From assembly GCA_949289845.1 (NCBI GenBank), contig CASEPN010000001.1, forward strand, positions 592,316-656,315: a stretch of DNA of 64,000 bases. Reading direction: 5' to 3'. Source of the DNA: an uncultured Bacillota bacterium (GTDB lineage: Bacteria; Bacillota_I; Bacilli_A; RFN20; CAG-826). Below are positions 6,308-16,591 of the stretch, piece after piece. Every line of letters starts with the position of its first letter. Positions within the stretch are counted from its first letter, which is position 1. A model generated the notes under the pieces. It saw nothing but the letters and a program-made list of their open reading frames with translations. It was not told the DNA's origin and ran no database searches. A program made the position numbers and the translations under genes.

Positions 6308-9301
6308 ATGGAAGGAAAGTGGAGGGCGCTTGAGGAGGATTACCTCCGGCGGAAGCGAGGCGAGCTCGTGCTCCCGCGCTTCGTCCGCAATTCCCGGGAG
6401 GAGGCCGTCTCCGTCCTTTCCGCGATCAACAGGAATCTCGAGGAGTGCGAGGAGTTCCTCTTCTCCGTCGCCTTCGTGAACGCCCAGGGACTCCTGAAGC
6501 TAAAGCTCAAGATGGGGGAGGCGGTCGCAAGGGGAGCGAAGGGCAGGATCCTCACCTCGGACTACCTCGGCTTCACGGAGCCGCGGGCCCTCCGCGACAT
6601 CCTCATGATGGACGGGGTGGATGGAAGGCTCTACCGGACGGGAGGAGGGAAGCCCGGCTTCCACACGAAAGGCTACCTCTTCCGCATGAGGACGAAGGCC
6701 GGGACGCCCTACTGGAAGGCGATCGTCGGCTCCAGCAACATCACCGAGAGCGCCCTTATCGAGAACAACGAATGGAACAGCGAGATGGTCTCGCAGGAGG
6801 AAGGGGAGGCGCTCAGGGACATCCTCAGGGATTTCGAAAGGCTCTGGGGGCTCGGAGAGCCGCTGGAGGAGGCGCTCCCCTCATACGAAAAAGAATGGGC
6901 AGAGGCGCATAAGGAACGGGAATATTCGGAAGAAGAGGGGCTTTCTGCGTTGGATTTCCATCCAAACGATCTTCAAAGGACGTTCCTAAGGAGGCTCGAG
7001 GATGTCATCGGGAAAGGGTTTAGCAAGGGCCTCCTGATCGCGGCGACAGGCACCGGGAAGACCTTCGCCTCCGCCTACGCGGTCCGTGAGCTGAAGGGGA
7101 TCAGGGTCAGGAGGCTCCTTTATATATCCCACCGCGAACGGATCCTCCGCCAGGCGATGGAGGCGTACCGCCGCCTCATGCCCGGGCGGAGGCAGGCCTT
7201 CTACGGAGGCTCGGAGAAAGGGGACGCGGAGGGCGCCGACTTCGTCTTCGCGACCTTCGACACCATAAGGAGGGAGGAGCATCTCGCCCGCTTCCGGAAG
7301 GACGAGTTCGACATGGTCGTCATCGACGAGGTGCACCGCGTCGGGGAAAACCATTACCAGGACATCATCGGCCATTTCGAGCCTTCCTTCCTCCTCGGCA
7401 TGAGCGCCACACCCGACAGGAGCGACGGCTACGACCTATACGGGCTCTTCGACAACGACATCATTCTGGAAATCCGCCTCCCGGACGCCCTGGAGGAGAA
7501 GATGCTCGTGCCCTTCTCCTACTTCGGGATCGGCAAGATAACGATCGACGGGCAGGACAGGGACTTCGAGGACTTCTCCGCCCTCGGGCCTGACGAGATG
7601 GCGAGGCAGATCGTCGAGAAGAGCCGCTACTTCGGCTACTCCGGAGACCGCCTGAGGGCGCTCGTCTTCGTCTCCGGGAGAGGATCGGAAAGGAAAGGGA
7701 CGCGGAAGGTGGAAGAAGTCGCCCTTGCCCTCCGGAATCTTGGGATCCGCGCGGAAGGAATCACCGCGGCGACTCCCCTCCGCGAAAGGAATGCCCGGAT
7801 CGAGAGGCTGGACGGACCGGAAGGAGCGGAGGCCCTCGACATGCTCGTCGCCCTGGATGTCCTCAACGAAGGCGTCGACATCCCCAACGTCAACCAGATC
7901 ATCATGGCAAGGCCCACAGACTCCCCCATCGTCTTCCTCCAGCAGCTGGGAAGGGGGCTCCGGCTTGCAAGAGGGAAGGAATACGTCGTCGTCCTCGACT
8001 TCATCGGGAACTACGAGAAGGGCAACTACCTGATCCCTGCTTCCTTCACGCGGAAGATGGAAGGGCATTGCTCCCTCCTCACGATGATGGAGAACCCCTT
8101 CCTCCCCGGCGTGAGCACTATCCAGTTCGACAAGGTCGCGCGGGAAAGGGTGATGCGTTCGATCGCGAAGTCGAAGCTCCTCGGCAATAGACGCCTGGAA
8201 GAAGCCTGGGAGGACCTCTCGCGACGGATCCAAGGAAAAGGGAAGGATGCGCCCAGGGTTCCTTCCTTGAAGGACTTCGAGGTCCTCTCGCCCTATTCGG
8301 CCCGCTTCTTCCTGGACAGGACTGGCGGCTTTAGGCACGACAACTACCAGGAATTCCTCCACCGGATAAGGCCGGAGGACTTCCCCTCCCTTCCTCCGAG
8401 GGAGAACGGGCTTCTCTCCTACCTCTCCCCGCTCGTCGGGAACGGGATGAGGGCGTTCGAGCCCCTGCTTCTCAAACTTCTCCTGCAAGGACCGGAGGGC
8501 GGGATACCACTAAGGGGAGGAACATTCGAGGAAACCCTCCTGAGGGAGTGGGAAGAGGTCGTCCCCTCCCAGGCGGACGGATATCTCCGCACCTTCTTCG
8601 GGGGAGGTTTCCGCGGAGGCAGGAAAATCGAAGGAATATCGCAATTCGGAAAATTTGAAGCAGGAATCGCGGAGCTTTCTCCTTGGGTTCTACAGTCCTA
8701 TCGGTCATCCCCTTGGTTCCGGAAGCAGATGGACTGGCTCATTGAGATCGCCTTCCACTACAGGAAGTCGAGGTTCGGGGCAAAGAGGGAAGGCCCCTGG
8801 GGCTTCGTCCCTTACGAGCAGTACCGGAGGTTCGACGTCACGCGGCTTCTCTTCGCGGAGAAGGACTACACGAACACCTTCTACGGATACCAGGTGCTCG
8901 AAAGAGAAAGGGCGACGCCGATATTCGTGACGTACCAGAAGGACGTGAAGGAGGAGGAATCCATCGCCTACCAGGACAAGCTCCTGGACCCCTCCCACTT
9001 CCTCTGGGTTTCGCGAAACAACCTCACCTTGGAAAGCCCTGAGATGCGGAAGCTGATCCGCCTTCACGAGGAAGGCGGAAGAATCCCCCTTTTCCTGACG
9101 AGGAAGAGGGACGAGGACGGAGGCGCGTTCCTATATCTAGGAGAGGCGAGGATCGACCAGGAAGAGGGTCCTCGGGAAGCGAAGATGAGAGGCGGGCAGG
9201 ATGTCGTCGAGTTTCCCCTTATCCTTCAGCACCCTGTCCGGAAGGACATCTACGACTATCTGAGGCTCGATGCGGAAAAGGAAAGCGAGAGGCCAGATTA
9301 A
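6308..9301 (+). CDS. PLD-like nuclease / SF2 helicase / DUF3427 protein
   Basis: A 997-residue multidomain protein of the type common in phage-defence islands. Residues 20-190 resemble a phospholipase-D-like nuclease domain (HTKGYLF, then IVGSSNITESA). Residues 230-600 form a superfamily 2 helicase: Walker A ATGTGKT near 246, DEVH near 338, MSATPDR near 363 and the arginine-finger motif QQLGRGLRLARGK near 545. The C-terminal 270 residues match DUF3427, whose function is unknown. A role in recognising or cutting foreign DNA is inference. The start is uncertain: in-frame ATGs lie at 6236, 6250 and 6308. I prefer 6308 by comparison with the usual distance to the first domain, although no good ribosome-binding site precedes it. 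It is transcribed divergently from malic enzyme. Confidence 0.88.
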   Translation: MEGKWRALEEDYLRRKRGELVLPRFVRNSREEAVSVLSAINRNLEECEEFLFSVAFVNAQGLLKLKLKMGEAVARGAKGRILTSDYLGFTEPRALRDILMMDGVDGRLYRTGGGKPGFHTKGYLFRMRTKAGTPYWKAIVGSSNITESALIENNEWNSEMVSQEEGEALRDILRDFERLWGLGEPLEEALPSYEKEWAEAHKEREYSEEEGLSALDFHPNDLQRTFLRRLEDVIGKGFSKGLLIAATGTGKTFASAYAVRELKGIRVRRLLYISHRERILRQAMEAYRRLMPGRRQAFYGGSEKGDAEGADFVFATFDTIRREEHLARFRKDEFDMVVIDEVHRVGENHYQDIIGHFEPSFLLGMSATPDRSDGYDLYGLFDNDIILEIRLPDALEEKMLVPFSYFGIGKITIDGQDRDFEDFSALGPDEMARQIVEKSRYFGYSGDRLRALVFVSGRGSERKGTRKVEEVALALRNLGIRAEGITAATPLRERNARIERLDGPEGAEALDMLVALDVLNEGVDIPNVNQIIMARPTDSPIVFLQQLGRGLRLARGKEYVVVLDFIGNYEKGNYLIPASFTRKMEGHCSLLTMMENPFLPGVSTIQFDKVARERVMRSIAKSKLLGNRRLEEAWEDLSRRIQGKGKDAPRVPSLKDFEVLSPYSARFFLDRTGGFRHDNYQEFLHRIRPEDFPSLPPRENGLLSYLSPLVGNGMRAFEPLLLKLLLQGPEGGIPLRGGTFEETLLREWEEVVPSQADGYLRTFFGGGFRGGRKIEGISQFGKFEAGIAELSPWVLQSYRSSPWFRKQMDWLIEIAFHYRKSRFGAKREGPWGFVPYEQYRRFDVTRLLFAEKDYTNTFYGYQVLERERATPIFVTYQKDVKEEESIAYQDKLLDPSHFLWVSRNNLTLESPEMRKLIRLHEEGGRIPLFLTRKRDEDGGAFLYLGEARIDQEEGPREAKMRGGQDVVEFPLILQHPVRKDIYDYLRLDAEKESERPD

Positions 9302-10768: not shown

Positions 10769-13303
10769 TCAGGGCATCCTAGCGGAGAGAAGGATTTCCC
10801 TTGCCTCCTCCTCGAGGCCGGTCTCTTCCACCACGAGCTTCCCTTCCCCGAGGCTCTTTCGCATGCGTTCCGTCTTGCGGTCGAGGGCGGCCAGCACGGC
10901 AAGGTCGAGCGTAGGGAAACGGGAGTCCCCGCTTTCCCCGATCGCGAAGTAGTAGCGAGTCCTCGTCCCTGCCGGAAGCCCCACGCGGTGGATCCTGTCC
11001 TTGCTCTGAAGAAGGTGGGCGAGGTTGTACCCATATTCAAGGTAAATGGCCTCGTGAGCCGCCATGTGGAGGGAGACGGACTCCCCGAGCGTCTGCGCGT
11101 TCGTAAGGAGGACCGCAGGCCCTCTCTCACGGAACCGGGAGATCCTTCGTTCCCGCTCCTCCACGTCCACGCGCCCGTCGACGACGAGGACGGGCACCCC
11201 CCTCCTCCTGAGCTCTTCTTCTACGAGATCGATAGTGCCCCGGAACATAGTCCAGAAAACGAGCTTCTTCCCTTCCTTCACCTCTTTCTCCGCGAGGCCG
11301 AGGGCGGCTTTCGCCTTTGAGGAAAGGCCGATGCCCCTCGCTGCCTTCAGGACTGTCTCCCCAAGGGGTTCCGAGGAAGCGGAGGGGCTCTCTTCCTCTT
11401 CTTCCCCCAGCTCCGCCCAGTCGATCCTTTCTTCCAGGAGACGAGGGTTGGTCGTTGCCTGGAGAAGGCGGATGAAGCGGAGGAGGAAGCTCGAGGAAGT
11501 CGAAAGATACACTTCCCTTAGAAGCGCGGACTCCTCCGGGGCCAAGGGGACGCGCAAGGTCGTCCTGTCGTCAGGGTCTGCGGGAGGAACGCCCATCTCG
11601 TCCTTCCCCGTGCGGACAAAGAGGGAGGAAAGCTCCTCGTTGATCCGATCGGCAAGGACGGCATCCCCGTCCGCCTCGCCAAGCCGGTCGAGGGAGAAGT
11701 CCCGCAGTCCTTCTTCCATCTCGTCAGGGTAGAGAAGGGAAAGCTGGGTGAAGAGATCCCGGAAGCTGTTGGGAAGAGGAGTGCCAGAAAGCAGGAGCCG
11801 GAAGCGTGGCGGGAAGTCGGACTCATCCACCATGCGGAGGAGGGAGCGCGCCCTTTGACCATGGGGGTTCTTGACGCGGTGGGACTCGTCGATCACGAGG
11901 AAGGTCCTCTTTCCGATGAGCGCGTCCTTGAGGAGAAGCGCGTTCCTTTCCGTGAGCTTCTCGTAGTTGAGGAGCCACCCTTCGCTCTCTTCGATATGGG
12001 AAGGGTCCTCGATTCTTTCAAAAGAGATGGGATTCTGCGGGAATATCGTCCGGTTCTCCCTGTCCCATGAATCATAGGCGCTATAGGGGCAGATGACGGC
12101 GATATGGCTTGCCAGACCGAAATGACGGAGGTAGGCGTATAGGGCGAGCGCGATCCAGGTCTTCCCTGTCCCCGGGACGGAGAAGTCGAAGGAACGCTCC
12201 AGAAGCAAATGGAAGAAAGCGTTCCTTAGCTGCCGTTCTCGGAAGGGCGCCGGGCTTTCCTGGCGCACGATCCTCTTGAAGGACTCGTACTGCTCGGTGA
12301 CCTCCGCGCTTTCCCTCCCTTCCTTGAAGGCAAGGGCGAGCTCCCGCTTCTTCTCAAGGTCGTAGTCTCCTCCCTCAAGATATTCGGAGGCGCCTTCCCC
12401 GAGGAGGAAGGGCAGTCCCGGAACCCTTGAGTAATAGTCAGAAAGAAGCCGGATGGCCTTCCTGCGGGAAGGGTAGGAAAAACGCCACTTCCCGTCCTTC
12501 TTCTCCCAATAGCGGGGCATGTATCTGTTCCTGTACTGGTCGAGGACCCTCCCTCTCGTATGGTCCTCGAGGAACACGCCTTCCCTGTCGAGGTCAAGGA
12601 GGATCCCTTCCAGGATCTCGGCGGTGCCCTCCGGCGTCTCGAGGAGCGCTCCCCGGGAACCGGACTTCAGCCTCGCCAGGATCCTTTCGGTCGGAGGGAC
12701 GGAGACAAGGCGATCGCTGTAGCGGTTCTCCCACATGGAGTCGAAGCGTTCCCTGGGGTCCTTGGCAAGCTCGGGGTGGAGCCAGGAACGGAAGACGTTC
12801 ACGAGTTCCCCGTTCATGAGAAGCCCTGCCTCGGTGTCGTTCTCGGAGCCATTGAAGGAGACGTAGTCGCCTTCCTTGTCGTAGAAAACCCCTATCTTGT
12901 AATGGGCGAGCCCCGTTCCTCGGGGAAGGAAGAGCAGCCGCACCTCGCATCGCCCGGAGGCGATCAAATAGGATAGGTTCGAGAAGTCCGGGGTGATCGC
13001 CCCTTCCAAGGAAGCCAGGAGGCCGTCCTCGACCTCCTTCCTCAGCCTCTCCCCCCTTCTGATCGCGTCGATCTCTTCCTCCCCGATCTCGCGGGTGAGA
13101 AGAAGCCTCATCCTTCCTCCATGAAGGAAGAAAGGCGCGAGCCCTCTCCCGAGAAGGGCGAGGGAACCAAGGGTGAAGTAGCAGCTGAGCCGGTCGAATC
13201 GGCACGATACCTTCAGGGCGGGGATATAGAAGCCCTCCAGGGGTTCCTCCCCTCGCTTCAGGGGGTCGTAGCCGATCCCGTAGGGGATGTCGCGGAGGCC
13301 CAC
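10769..13303 (-). CDS. SNF2-type helicase with N-terminal PLD-like nuclease domain
   Basis: An 844-residue protein, last gene of the restriction operon. The N-terminal 200 residues resemble a phospholipase-D-like nuclease (H-x-K in AHYKIGVFYD near 132, then FNGSEND). The helicase core has Walker A PGTGKT near 376, DESH near 471, LSGTPLPN near 505 and a C-terminal helicase domain ending with an arginine-containing motif QSKDRIHRVG near 772, as in SNF2/RapA-like translocases. I chose GTG 13303, which shares one base with the stop codon of the ParB-like gene (TAGTG) and is preceded by GAGAAGGA; the longer frame from 13360 would overlap that gene by 58 bases. The domain make-up suggests an ATP-driven partner of DNA restriction; this is inference. 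Confidence 0.87.
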   Translation of the reverse strand: MGLRDIPYGIGYDPLKRGEEPLEGFYIPALKVSCRFDRLSCYFTLGSLALLGRGLAPFFLHGGRMRLLLTREIGEEEIDAIRRGERLRKEVEDGLLASLEGAITPDFSNLSYLIASGRCEVRLLFLPRGTGLAHYKIGVFYDKEGDYVSFNGSENDTEAGLLMNGELVNVFRSWLHPELAKDPRERFDSMWENRYSDRLVSVPPTERILARLKSGSRGALLETPEGTAEILEGILLDLDREGVFLEDHTRGRVLDQYRNRYMPRYWEKKDGKWRFSYPSRRKAIRLLSDYYSRVPGLPFLLGEGASEYLEGGDYDLEKKRELALAFKEGRESAEVTEQYESFKRIVRQESPAPFRERQLRNAFFHLLLERSFDFSVPGTGKTWIALALYAYLRHFGLASHIAVICPYSAYDSWDRENRTIFPQNPISFERIEDPSHIEESEGWLLNYEKLTERNALLLKDALIGKRTFLVIDESHRVKNPHGQRARSLLRMVDESDFPPRFRLLLSGTPLPNSFRDLFTQLSLLYPDEMEEGLRDFSLDRLGEADGDAVLADRINEELSSLFVRTGKDEMGVPPADPDDRTTLRVPLAPEESALLREVYLSTSSSFLLRFIRLLQATTNPRLLEERIDWAELGEEEEESPSASSEPLGETVLKAARGIGLSSKAKAALGLAEKEVKEGKKLVFWTMFRGTIDLVEEELRRRGVPVLVVDGRVDVEERERRISRFRERGPAVLLTNAQTLGESVSLHMAAHEAIYLEYGYNLAHLLQSKDRIHRVGLPAGTRTRYYFAIGESGDSRFPTLDLAVLAALDRKTERMRKSLGEGKLVVEETGLEEEAREILLSARMP

Positions 13304-14541
13304 TAGTCCTTCTCTTCCTCCCCGAAGACCCAGCGCGCCAGCGCGCGGTCCTCCAGGCAAAGCGCCCGGATTGCCTTTAGACGGTTCTTTAGTTCTTCCT
13401 GCTCGCTCTTGCTCAGGGATCCAAGCGCGCGGATGTTCTCGAAGGCGAGGAAATCGTTGAGCGCCCTATAGGCTTTCGATGACTTATCGAGGAGCCCTTG
13501 CGCGGAAATGTAGTCGAGATCGACGAAGACGGATTCCTCGGCGTCGCGGAGCATCTCGTCCGAGACGCCCTTGCCCAGGGCATCGCCCGCCCTTTCTTCC
13601 GTGAGAGTCGGAAGGGAGAAGGACCTCGCCTTTTCCCTCGCGGTAGGGGAATCCCAGAGATACTTGAGATACTCCCGGATTTTCCTCGTCATGTCCCCGT
13701 CCCCTTCGTCAAGGAAGGTGTAGATGGAGGATTTCATCCCCTCGTACTCCGCCTCAGTCCATTTCCGGCGGTACTTGATGATCTCGCGGAGCGGGCCGTC
13801 CATCGCCTTCCGTTCCAGGTACTCAAAGGAAAGGGGCGTTCCCTTCCATTCGAGGAAGTCCAGGGCGATGTCGAGCTCATCGGAGAGCTTCTTGAGGTCC
13901 CCAACCGTCATGCCGGCGTTCCTTTGGTATTCCTTGGACGAAAGAAGGCCGACGGTGTTCGGGTCCCTAGTCGCTCGATAGAAGTCCGCCAGCCTTGCGA
14001 TCGGCGTGTACTCGAGGGGCTGCATCTTCGCAAGGGCGATCTGGAGCTCAAGCATCTTGATATAGCGCCAGCCCTCCTTGTCCTCGGCCTCGGGCGCGGG
14101 AAGTACGGCGGCGTGGAAAAAGAGCGTCTCCCCGGAATCGCGGGCGTTCTTTCGAAGCGCGGTATACCGTCGGTTGCCGTCGATGATCCGCCCGTCGGTC
14201 AGGATGATCCCGGGCTCCAGCTGCCCGAACAGGGCGATGTTCCTCCTCAGTTCCTGAAGCTTCCCGGGGTTCTGTTTTTCGATGAACTCTTCGAAACGGC
14301 GCTGGTACTCCTCGGGATCCTCTCGGCGAAGGGCCCCGTAGTCGACGCTCTTGCCCCTTCGAGCCTCGTCCGCCTGGATGATGGTGACGATCCGTCCGTT
14401 TAGATCGTTATAGAAAATGGCATCCAGGGGGATTTCGTAAACTTGGTAGTTATCCGATTTCCCCCGGAACGGAAATCTCTTGAACTCATTCTCGATGGGA
14501 CGGATCCGGTACGTCTCCCTGATAATCAAATCCTCAGCCAT
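13303..14541 (-). CDS. ParB/Srx-like domain protein of the restriction operon
   Basis: A 412-residue soluble protein with a ParB-type N-terminal fold: YEIPLDAIFYND, then LRRNIALFGQLEPGIILTDG and RIIDGNRRYTALRKNA (about residues 105-135), the characteristic G-N-R-R motif that binds or hydrolyses CTP in ParB relatives. The remaining 250 residues are helical and not recognised. The gene overlaps the endonuclease gene by 8 bases and its stop codon touches the helicase start, so the four genes are translationally coupled. A role in DNA loading or in sensing for the restriction complex is inference; it is unlikely to be a chromosome-partition ParB because it lacks a parS-type HTH that I can see and has no ParA neighbour. 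Confidence 0.8.
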   Translation of the reverse strand: MAEDLIIRETYRIRPIENEFKRFPFRGKSDNYQVYEIPLDAIFYNDLNGRIVTIIQADEARRGKSVDYGALRREDPEEYQRRFEEFIEKQNPGKLQELRRNIALFGQLEPGIILTDGRIIDGNRRYTALRKNARDSGETLFFHAAVLPAPEAEDKEGWRYIKMLELQIALAKMQPLEYTPIARLADFYRATRDPNTVGLLSSKEYQRNAGMTVGDLKKLSDELDIALDFLEWKGTPLSFEYLERKAMDGPLREIIKYRRKWTEAEYEGMKSSIYTFLDEGDGDMTRKIREYLKYLWDSPTAREKARSFSLPTLTEERAGDALGKGVSDEMLRDAEESVFVDLDYISAQGLLDKSSKAYRALNDFLAFENIRALGSLSKSEQEELKNRLKAIRALCLEDRALARWVFGEEEKD

Positions 14542-15238
14542 TCCCTTCTCCTTTCAGCAAAGAGTCCATATACCAGCGGCTGATCCAGAAGGCCTGCCGC
14601 GGATAATCCTTAAGGCCTGTGAGGCGGTCCGGCACAGGAAGGAGGTCCCTGTCCCTGGAGTCTCTCCCATGGGGCCTCACGTGGACGGGGTTCCCTTCTT
14701 TCTCCGCTTCGCCCGGGAAGTTCGAAAGATGGCGCCCCTCCTTCGCCTCCCGCACGATGTCCCCCGAAAGGAGGACGGACTGCGTGCGGAGGTAGGCTTC
14801 CCTCACCTTCCCCTCCAAGGTCTTCTCGTCCATCTTCAGGGGAAGGACGGAGCCGATGCATTTGTCCTCGGGGTCGAGGAGGACGAGGATGAAGTTGGTT
14901 GCCGCGAGGGTTTTCCTCAGGTCCGAGTCCTCCCAGGGGGTGAGGGCGATCTCCTTGAAAGAAAAGGCTGGAAACGGGAGGTTCTCCTTGAAGAAGAGCC
15001 CGTCGGGGCGGCGTTTTCCGGTGAGTACCCGCATTTCCGCGGAAACCTTCTTGAGGAGGGCGCCGAACTGCTTCCCTCCCAAGGAAAGCTCGATGCTCCG
15101 CCGAGCAGCGCCCGACAAATAGCCCTTTCCCCTGGGATCGAGCCCCATGGCGCCCGGAAGGGAGTCGATGGCTTTCCCGCGGAGGCGCTCGATCGCCCCG
15201 AAGACCGCCGCCATGGCCTCGCTTCCGTCCATGCTCAT
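14534..15238 (-). CDS. MutH/Sau3AI-family restriction endonuclease
   Basis: A 234-residue protein resembling the Sau3AI/MutH group, which cut at GATC. The recognisable parts are the N-terminal GKGYLSGAARRSIELSLGGKQ segment, a catalytic-type stretch near 75-110 (DGLFFKENLPFPAFSFKEIA), and the C-terminal HVRPHGRDSRDRD followed by QAFWISRWYM, matching the HVRP...FWLN ending of Sau3AI relatives. It overlaps the methyltransferase stop by the ATGA arrangement and has AGGAGG just before ATG 15238. Because translation is coupled to the methyltransferase, a frameshift in that gene should also lower endonuclease synthesis. Specificity for GATC is inferred from the family, not shown. Confidence 0.8.
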   Translation of the reverse strand: MSMDGSEAMAAVFGAIERLRGKAIDSLPGAMGLDPRGKGYLSGAARRSIELSLGGKQFGALLKKVSAEMRVLTGKRRPDGLFFKENLPFPAFSFKEIALTPWEDSDLRKTLAATNFILVLLDPEDKCIGSVLPLKMDEKTLEGKVREAYLRTQSVLLSGDIVREAKEGRHLSNFPGEAEKEGNPVHVRPHGRDSRDRDLLPVPDRLTGLKDYPRQAFWISRWYMDSLLKGEGNG

Positions 15239-16502
15239 TCCTCCTTCACGTACGGAAGGAGGGCGGCCCCGATCCTTCCTACGATCCCCGTGACCAAGGC
15301 GTTCCCCATGGTGAAGTAGCGCCTTCCCCTGCTCATCCCGGTGTCGGTCCAGCCGGCGGGGAAGCCGTTCAGCCGCTCGCACTCCTCCGGGGAAAGGAAG
15401 CGGAGCCTCCCGTTCCCGGGGTCCTTGACCACGTGGGAGGAGCGGTTCACGGAGCCTTCGCTCGTCAGCATCGTCCTGGCAGGAAGATAGGCGGAGTCGT
15501 ACTCCGACATCCTCCCTTCCTGGTAGAGGTACTCCTCCCCGAGGGCGCTCTTCCGGACGATCTTCTTCGCTCCCCTGAGGAAGGCGAACTTCTCCTCTTG
15601 CGAGGGAGAGAGGTAGAGCCTCTCGTCCCTTTCATGGGAAAGGACGTCCTTGAGGAGGAGAGCCTCTTCTTTCCTTGGGACGAGCTCGAAGGCGTGCGCC
15701 TTCCCTTCCCGAAGATATCCCCCGTTCCCGAAGTGCCCCGAGAAGAGGTCGCTGACCGCCGCGAGGTCCTTGAACGCCATGAGGTCGTGGAGGGCGACTT
15801 CCTTAGCCTCTTTCGTCGGAAGTGCCTTGGCAAGGACTCCTTCCGAGATGACGTCGGCCTCCCTCATCCTCTCCGCCAGCCTCGTCCTCCCGTGGTAGCA
15901 AAGGAGAAAGGTCCTCCTCCTTCGCTGGGGGAAGCCGTAGTCGGATGCGTTCACGACCCTCCACTCGGCCTCGTAGCCAAGCTCCGCGAGGGTGCGGAGG
16001 ATGATCGCGAAATCCCTTCCCCTCTGCTTCTTCGGGGATAGGAGCAGGCGGTTTACGTTCTCGAAGAGGAGGAAGGGCATCCTCCTTTCCCTCAGGATGC
16101 GGGCGATCTCCCACCAGAGGACGCCCTTCTTCCCGACGATCCCGATTTCCTCGTGGGTCTTCCGGGCGACGCTATAGTCCTGGCAGGGAAAGCCCGCGGT
16201 CAGAAGGGCGGCCTCCGGCACCTTCTCCGTGGGAACCGTCGCGATATCCTCGTTGGAGAAAAGGGTGCCTCCCCCTTCTTCTTCATTCCTTAGAGACTCT
16301 CTCTCTCTCTCTCTCTGGAATTATATCTTAACAAATAACACGAAAACGCGTCCTGCTTCCTGGAGCCCGGCTCCCATTGGTTCATGAAAAGGGTTTCCCA
16401 AAGAGGCTCCTCGACGGTCTTCCCCTCGATGAGGCGCGCGTGGTTCAGCCCGACGCGAAACCCGCCCACTCCAGCGAACAATTCCACGGTCGTAGGCTTC
16501 AT
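15235..16502 (-). CDS. Cytosine-5 DNA methyltransferase, phase-variable and out of frame here
   Basis: Two frames together encode one Sau3AI-type C5 methyltransferase of about 421 residues. The first, from ATG 16502, gives motif I (VELFAGVGGFRVGL) and NQWEPGSRKQDAF, then enters a tract of ten AG units (16297-16316) and stops at TAA 16292-16290. The second frame continues SNEDIATVPTEKVPEAALL, the catalytic GFPCQDYSVAR (motif IV, Cys in PCQ), FENVNRLL (motif VI), QRRRR (motif VIII) and the terminal RLNGFPAGWT and MGNAL motifs. Losing one AG unit or gaining two joins the frames with no stop between them; gaining one gives another early stop. So this copy is OFF and the gene is probably switched by slippage. 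The enzyme would methylate cytosine in the site cut by the neighbouring endonuclease, probably GATC. A GTG at 16221 could start a truncated protein lacking the SAM-binding motif. Confidence 0.88.
16297..16316 (-). repeat. (AG)10 dinucleotide tract inside the methyltransferase gene
   Basis: Ten perfect CT units on the plus strand (AG on the coding strand) within codons between methyltransferase motifs I and IV. Such tracts mutate in length by slipped-strand mispairing. It is the only long dinucleotide run I noticed in the window. Confidence 0.95.
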
Positions 16503-16509
16503 ATGCCGA

Positions 16510-16538
16510 AATCTATCAAGATCCTTAGGATCTGGGAA
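16510..16538 (-). promoter_or_regulatory. Putative methyltransferase promoter with GATC palindrome
   Basis: On the minus strand a -35-like TTCCCA (16533-16538), 17-nt spacer and -10 TAGATT (16510-16515) end seven bases before ATG 16502, fitting a leaderless start. The spacer holds a palindrome AGATCCTAAGGATCT (16519-16533) with two GATC sites; a third GATC lies at 16540. A second possible promoter is an extended -10 TGCTATAGC near 16570-16580, nearer the WYL-type operator. Binding or methylation at these sites could feed back on expression. Confidence 0.5.
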
Positions 16539-16591
16539 GGATCCAGCCTGCGGAAGAAGCAGACGAAATTAGCACGCTATAGCAATGCCTA

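Follow-up and report, generated by a model that had tools for sequence, protein, structure and literature searches.

An AG-repeat tract as a probable phase switch in the methyltransferase gene of a four-gene restriction system from uncultured Bacilli

A tract of ten AG units breaks the frame of a cytosine-5 methyltransferase (MTase) gene in the window, the 64-kb stretch of DNA that was analysed, and it very probably serves as a phase switch, worked by strand slippage, for the modification gene of a restriction system with four genes. The tract occupies 16297-16316 and reads (AG)10 on the coding (−) strand and (CT)10 on the + strand. As a sequence-only reading had claimed, it lies after motif I and before motif IV of the gene. 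It occurs only once within the 64 kb and appeared in none of 100 dinucleotide-preserving shuffles of the window (0/100), and it is not expected by chance.

The effect of the unit number on the frame was read in silico. With the ten units of the assembly, a stop codon is met 4 nt past the tract and with 11 units 11 nt past it; nine units give an MTase of 421 aa and 12 units one of 423 aa. The window assembly is in the OFF phase of the gene, and the earlier statement that the frame ends shortly past the tract and that nine or 12 units restore the complete enzyme was accurate. The 5' part of the gene (16290..16502, − strand) is a 70-aa ORF that contains motif I (FAGVGGFRVGL) and ends in YNSRERERESL, with TAA just behind the tract. 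The 3' part, from motif IV to the C-terminus (15235..16296, − strand), is open with nine or 12 units and contains motif IV (AGFPCQDYS), ENVNRL, QRRRR and the C-terminal motifs. This downstream frame matches PF00145 at 6.6e-42, and the MTase scores above the cut-offs of PF00145 and TIGR00675, which identifies it as a C5-cytosine MTase.

The MTase heads an operon of four tightly packed genes, all overlapping end to start, a gene order that is read directly in the sequence like the tract itself. The start of gene 2 overlapping the MTase stop, which had also been claimed, is real: the ATG and the stop share GGAGGAATGAGC, and further overlaps are found between genes 2 and 3 and between genes 3 and 4. 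Since a strong Shine-Dalgarno sequence (AAGGAGG) lies just 5' of gene 2, this gene could also initiate independently.

Gene 2 (14534..15238, − strand, about 234 codons) had been taken for the endonuclease gene, a name that does not hold. It encodes a single Sau3AI C-terminal-type (MutH-fold) domain, DNA-binding and non-catalytic, with no catalytic D..ExK. The NCBIfam Sau3AI model matches it at positions 311-473 only, scoring 56 bits where the cut-off is 300, and in the alignment with homologues the N-terminal domain (PDF..VELK) is missing. The D...ExK site is likewise absent in 5/5 single-domain relatives, and the structure model (pLDDT 90.7) finds its best match in 7xm0, the Sau3AI C-domain/DNA complex, followed by MutH. 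Gene 2 as an active endonuclease was therefore rejected, the catalytic Sau3AI domain being missing in the alignment, the relatives and the model; its product is predicted to be, probably, a DNA-reading subunit. As a name for the whole system, "Sau3AI-type" does not hold: the C5-cytosine MTase (PF00145, TIGR00675) is there, the catalytic N-terminal endonuclease domain is not. The predicted fold of gene 2 alone suggests GATC as the target site, and the window shows no depletion of GATC (428 observed vs 448 expected).

Gene 3 (13303..14541, − strand, 412 aa) has no Pfam match and was called ParB-like from the motif DGRIxDGNRRxT, judged by eye, which is invariant and resembles ParB proteins. Gene 4 (10769..13303, − strand, 844 aa) combines an N-terminal PLD domain (HxK..GSxN) with an SNF2 helicase (PF00176, 3.7e-12). 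Its N-terminal 180 residues match PbeA at 1.5e-42; for the helicase part, other SNF2 families match better than PbeA. By its motifs, the PLD domain is likely the nuclease of the system and gene 4 a nuclease/translocase. For the helicase, DISARM, DpdE, Zorya and BREX gave weaker, partial matches and were therefore set aside. A ParB-like gene followed by an SNF2-type helicase gene was also seen on at least 50 Enterococcus plasmids, with another gene in front (L187, L188); the pair is annotated there as hypothetical protein and DEAD/DEAH helicase.

The genus was sampled with 37 genomes, one per species, of which the window genome is G000. The MTase was also found, with its operon, in G018 (97% identical) and G026 (89%). 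G018 has ten units and is OFF like the window. G026, with nine units and one extra base behind the tract, is OFF in the other frame; ten units would be ON there, and its two OFF frames end 5 and 12 nt past the tract. The tract lengths in the window, G018 and G026 are 10, 10 and 9, all OFF and with no ON allele of the MTase among these three, and two different OFF phases are represented.

That all three genomes are OFF would also fit a dying gene, in which a one-time slip cost the MTase and the operon is now decaying, but the state of the genes makes this improbable. Between the window and G026, dN/dS is 0.08 in the N part of the MTase (dS 0.37) and 0.13 in the C part (dS 0.46), and across the three species the MTase parts with measurable dN gave 0.06-0.18. 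Judged by these ratios, both halves of the MTase are under purifying selection. Apart from the tract, no frameshift or stop was found in the MTase genes of the three species. Genes 2-4 are intact in the OFF genomes examined and constrained as well (dN/dS 0.07-0.12, window vs G018). Such constraint on both halves and on genes 2-4 would not be expected of a dead gene. In addition, G026 keeps stops behind the tract in both OFF frames despite its extra base, and relatives of the MTase appear switchable by other devices, as described below. An in-frame stop suspected in the ParB-like gene of G026 turned out to be merely an earlier natural stop. A search of IMG/VR with the MTase returned distant homologues only (≤45% identity) and no tract-length variants.

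About 50 bp directly 5' of the MTase start (16503..16552, − strand) are conserved in the three species, and in the alignment with G026 divergence begins 5' of this segment, which is the probable promoter region. A consensus promoter search including sigma-70 gave no match for the region upstream of the MTase. The conserved segment contains several GATC sites directly 5' of the start; through them the MTase might control its own promoter, provided that GATC is its target.

A pattern search for AG tracts of at least seven units found three in all in G000, including that of the MTase. The second lies in an MTase-type gene that has EPSCGNGNF as its motif I and is followed by an Eco57I-type MTase and a T5orf172/ResIII protein (L009, G000:C1:296000-311000, tract 7320-7355; L199 in G018). 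This second restriction gene is OFF in G000 and ON in G018 (nine units). Between the two genomes the tract gene is 91-97% identical, the Eco57I-type MTase 45% and the ResIII/T5orf172 protein 61%, as though the switch gene had been conserved while the specificity genes behind it were swapped. The third tract (L010:7003-7024), (AG)11 in G000 and ten units in G018, is intergenic; it has a lipoprotein gene, read divergently, on one side and a 401-aa gene of no known family on the other, and it may tune a promoter. Intergenic (AG)8-10 tracts were also seen in other genomes of the genus (L041, L044, L045, L039, L054), with AATCAAG or TCAAGCACTT as common 3' flank.

The same comparison bears on the idea that assembly or sequencing produced a wrong unit count and that the true gene is always in frame. 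Dinucleotide repeats are error-prone and these genomes are metagenome-assembled, but 20 bases fit easily within a read, the window and G018 were deposited independently and both have ten units, and the OFF state of G026 arises in another way. Moreover, the differences between G000 and G018 at the three tracts are gene-specific, and we consider a wrong count very unlikely.

Further relatives came from searches at the level of order and class, for which the ParB-like protein was the query, and from homologous MTase loci. The co-directional operon with a single-domain gene 2 was also found in G094, G076, G075 and G071. In G094, Candidatus Alloenteromonas pullistercoris from a different genus (contig L084), the MTase is 47% identical to that of the window and carries an (AG)10 of its own, in the ON frame and about 35 codons nearer the start than the tract of the window. 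In G076 and G075, from another family of the order, the first 128 codons of the MTase lie on the strand opposite to the rest of the gene (L171:10175-11589 and L173:5278-6679). This 5' segment sits between two inverted repeats of 25 bp (core TAAGCAGGATGCTTAAGG) with 368 nt between them; the arms encode LKHPA at the joint, and the segment adjoins a tyrosine recombinase gene (PF00589). Inverting the segment in silico gave a single MTase ORF in both genomes, of 415 and 413 aa. The recombinases of the two genomes are 65% identical and the MTases 76%; the inverted repeats are nonetheless kept. Both assemblies are in the OFF orientation; the segment presumably flips. No switch was found in the operon of G071.

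In a tree of 41 MTase sequences, covering motif IV to the C-terminus, the AG clade of the window is sister to the inversion pair G075/G076 (support 100/98). The switch mechanism thus differs between sister clades. The AG label needs two changes on this tree, which its well-supported branches force, and because the L084 tract also has a different position, it is independent of that of the window.

These devices were confined to few loci. In a set of 92 MTase loci taken from genomes and viral contigs, G018 and G026 are the only ones in which motif I is out of frame, and AG tracts occur in G018, G026 and L084 only; across 124 loci, an MTase in pieces on opposite strands was found in G075 and G076 alone. 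Neither a repeat of this kind nor a pair of inverted repeats was found in the MTase of relatives that have full-length Sau3AI, other partners or a divergent MTase; several of these control loci cover only part of the MTase gene. Overall, a switch is present in 6/7 single-domain operons and in 0/~117 others, where genomes are counted that are not independent, so that a Fisher value overstates the contrast. At another locus, in an AT-rich genome that also has a ParB-like gene, (AT)9 lies shortly 5' of the start of a homologous MTase (L229:120-137); this may be chance.

Ribosomal frameshifting on the AG repeat (AGAGAG can be slippery, and stop codons lie directly behind the tract), or a separately started second half, would yield active enzyme at any unit count, but there is little chance of either, since G026 requires a different frame change from the window and G018, which one programmed shift cannot supply, the homologue in L084 requires no shift, and a second half alone would be without motif I, which is in the first half.

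The reading of the tract as an on/off switch at the head of the operon is supported by the selection on the genes, both OFF frames, L084, the second AG locus and the inversion in the sister clade. In the mechanism that we infer for living cells, AG units would be gained or lost by slippage at replication, so that the MTase would alternate among three frames, one ON and two OFF, with a stop within 13 nt of the tract in either OFF frame. In the ON state, the full cytosine-5 MTase, with predicted m5C activity, would mark the cell's own DNA, and in the OFF state the mark would be lost. Target recognition would probably fall to gene 2, with GATC the likely site, and unmarked DNA would probably be attacked by the ParB-like protein and the PLD-SNF2 helicase. 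Because genes 2-4 are intact in the OFF genomes, the OFF state would also have to disarm restriction. This could occur by translational coupling or polarity through the overlapping genes, and coupling of the MTase and gene 2 is plausible from their overlap. Alternatively, the restriction complex could be active only with modification present, as reported for PbeABCD.

Some elements of the system resemble described ones. M.MmyCI of Mycoplasma mycoides subsp. capri has an AG tract with 12 units OFF and ten ON and TAA right behind it, and activity was present in the strain with the ON allele (PMC3498834). Like the window gene, it carries the tract within the MTase gene and its OFF allele ends at a TAA behind the tract, but it is the N6-adenine Mod of a Type III Mod/Res system (TGAG), whereas the window has a C5-cytosine MTase with three other partner proteins and does not belong to the Type III restriction-modification systems. 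The hpyAVIBM gene of Helicobacter pylori is a phase-variable C5-cytosine MTase whose ORF is truncated by a change in AG repeat length; unlike the window gene, it has 4-5 units and the target CCTC, and it is a Type IIS remnant without restriction enzyme (PMC3411764). The Type II Sau3AI system shares with the window a C5-cytosine MTase of the same broad family and the fold of its C-terminal domain, found in gene 2, but the window has no catalytic Sau3AI domain, has extra ParB-like and PLD-SNF2 proteins, and its genes are co-directional and overlapping.

In PbeABCD and the CxC ABC-ATPase systems, as in the window, a PLD (HKD)-SF2 helicase fusion is paired with DNA modification (PMC6459918, PMC10853773). 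PbeA is an HKD endoDNase fused to an SF2 helicase according to published analysis (PMC10853773), loss of the modification genes of PbeABCD was reported to be harmless and to abolish defence (PMC6459918), and MTases have been reported close to solitary pbeAC genes (PMC6459918, PMC10853773). However, the four-gene operon has no CxC ABC ATPase (PbeC) and no DndE-type gene (PbeD), its modification would be base methylation and not phosphorothioation, and the likeness lies mainly in the N-terminal PLD domain. As for the inversion, most of the known invertible restriction-modification loci are Type I hsdS loci (PMC4948785, PMC5903667), such as that of the Streptococcus pneumoniae cod locus with PsrA (PMC4948785). 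The cod locus and G075/G076 have in common a tyrosine recombinase and inverted repeats that switch a restriction-modification gene. Inversion of hsdS mainly changes target specificity, whereas that in G075/G076 splits the MTase ORF and would be an on/off switch.

AG-tract MTase switches are already known from M.MmyCI and hpyAVIBM; the variant system and the exchange of the switch mechanism look new. In the open-access papers searched, the four-gene system is not described as phase-variable, and neither a C5-MTase ORF split by an invertase nor a case of both switch mechanisms in sister clades is described. Different switch devices in the closest MTase relatives suggest that switchability itself is selected. 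The wider proposal, of an undescribed restriction system in which switchability has been selected, with at least three origins (AG tract twice, recombinase inversion once) and the whole system toggled, stands in our estimate at about even.

Most known examples of phase-variable restriction come from host-adapted pathogens and involve Type I or Type III systems, and here it would operate in uncultured Bacilli with small genomes. The finding raises the question of how a cell that loses modification survives with intact restriction genes downstream in the operon. With two switch machineries in sister MTase clades, selection for switchability would become testable apart from an accidental repeat.
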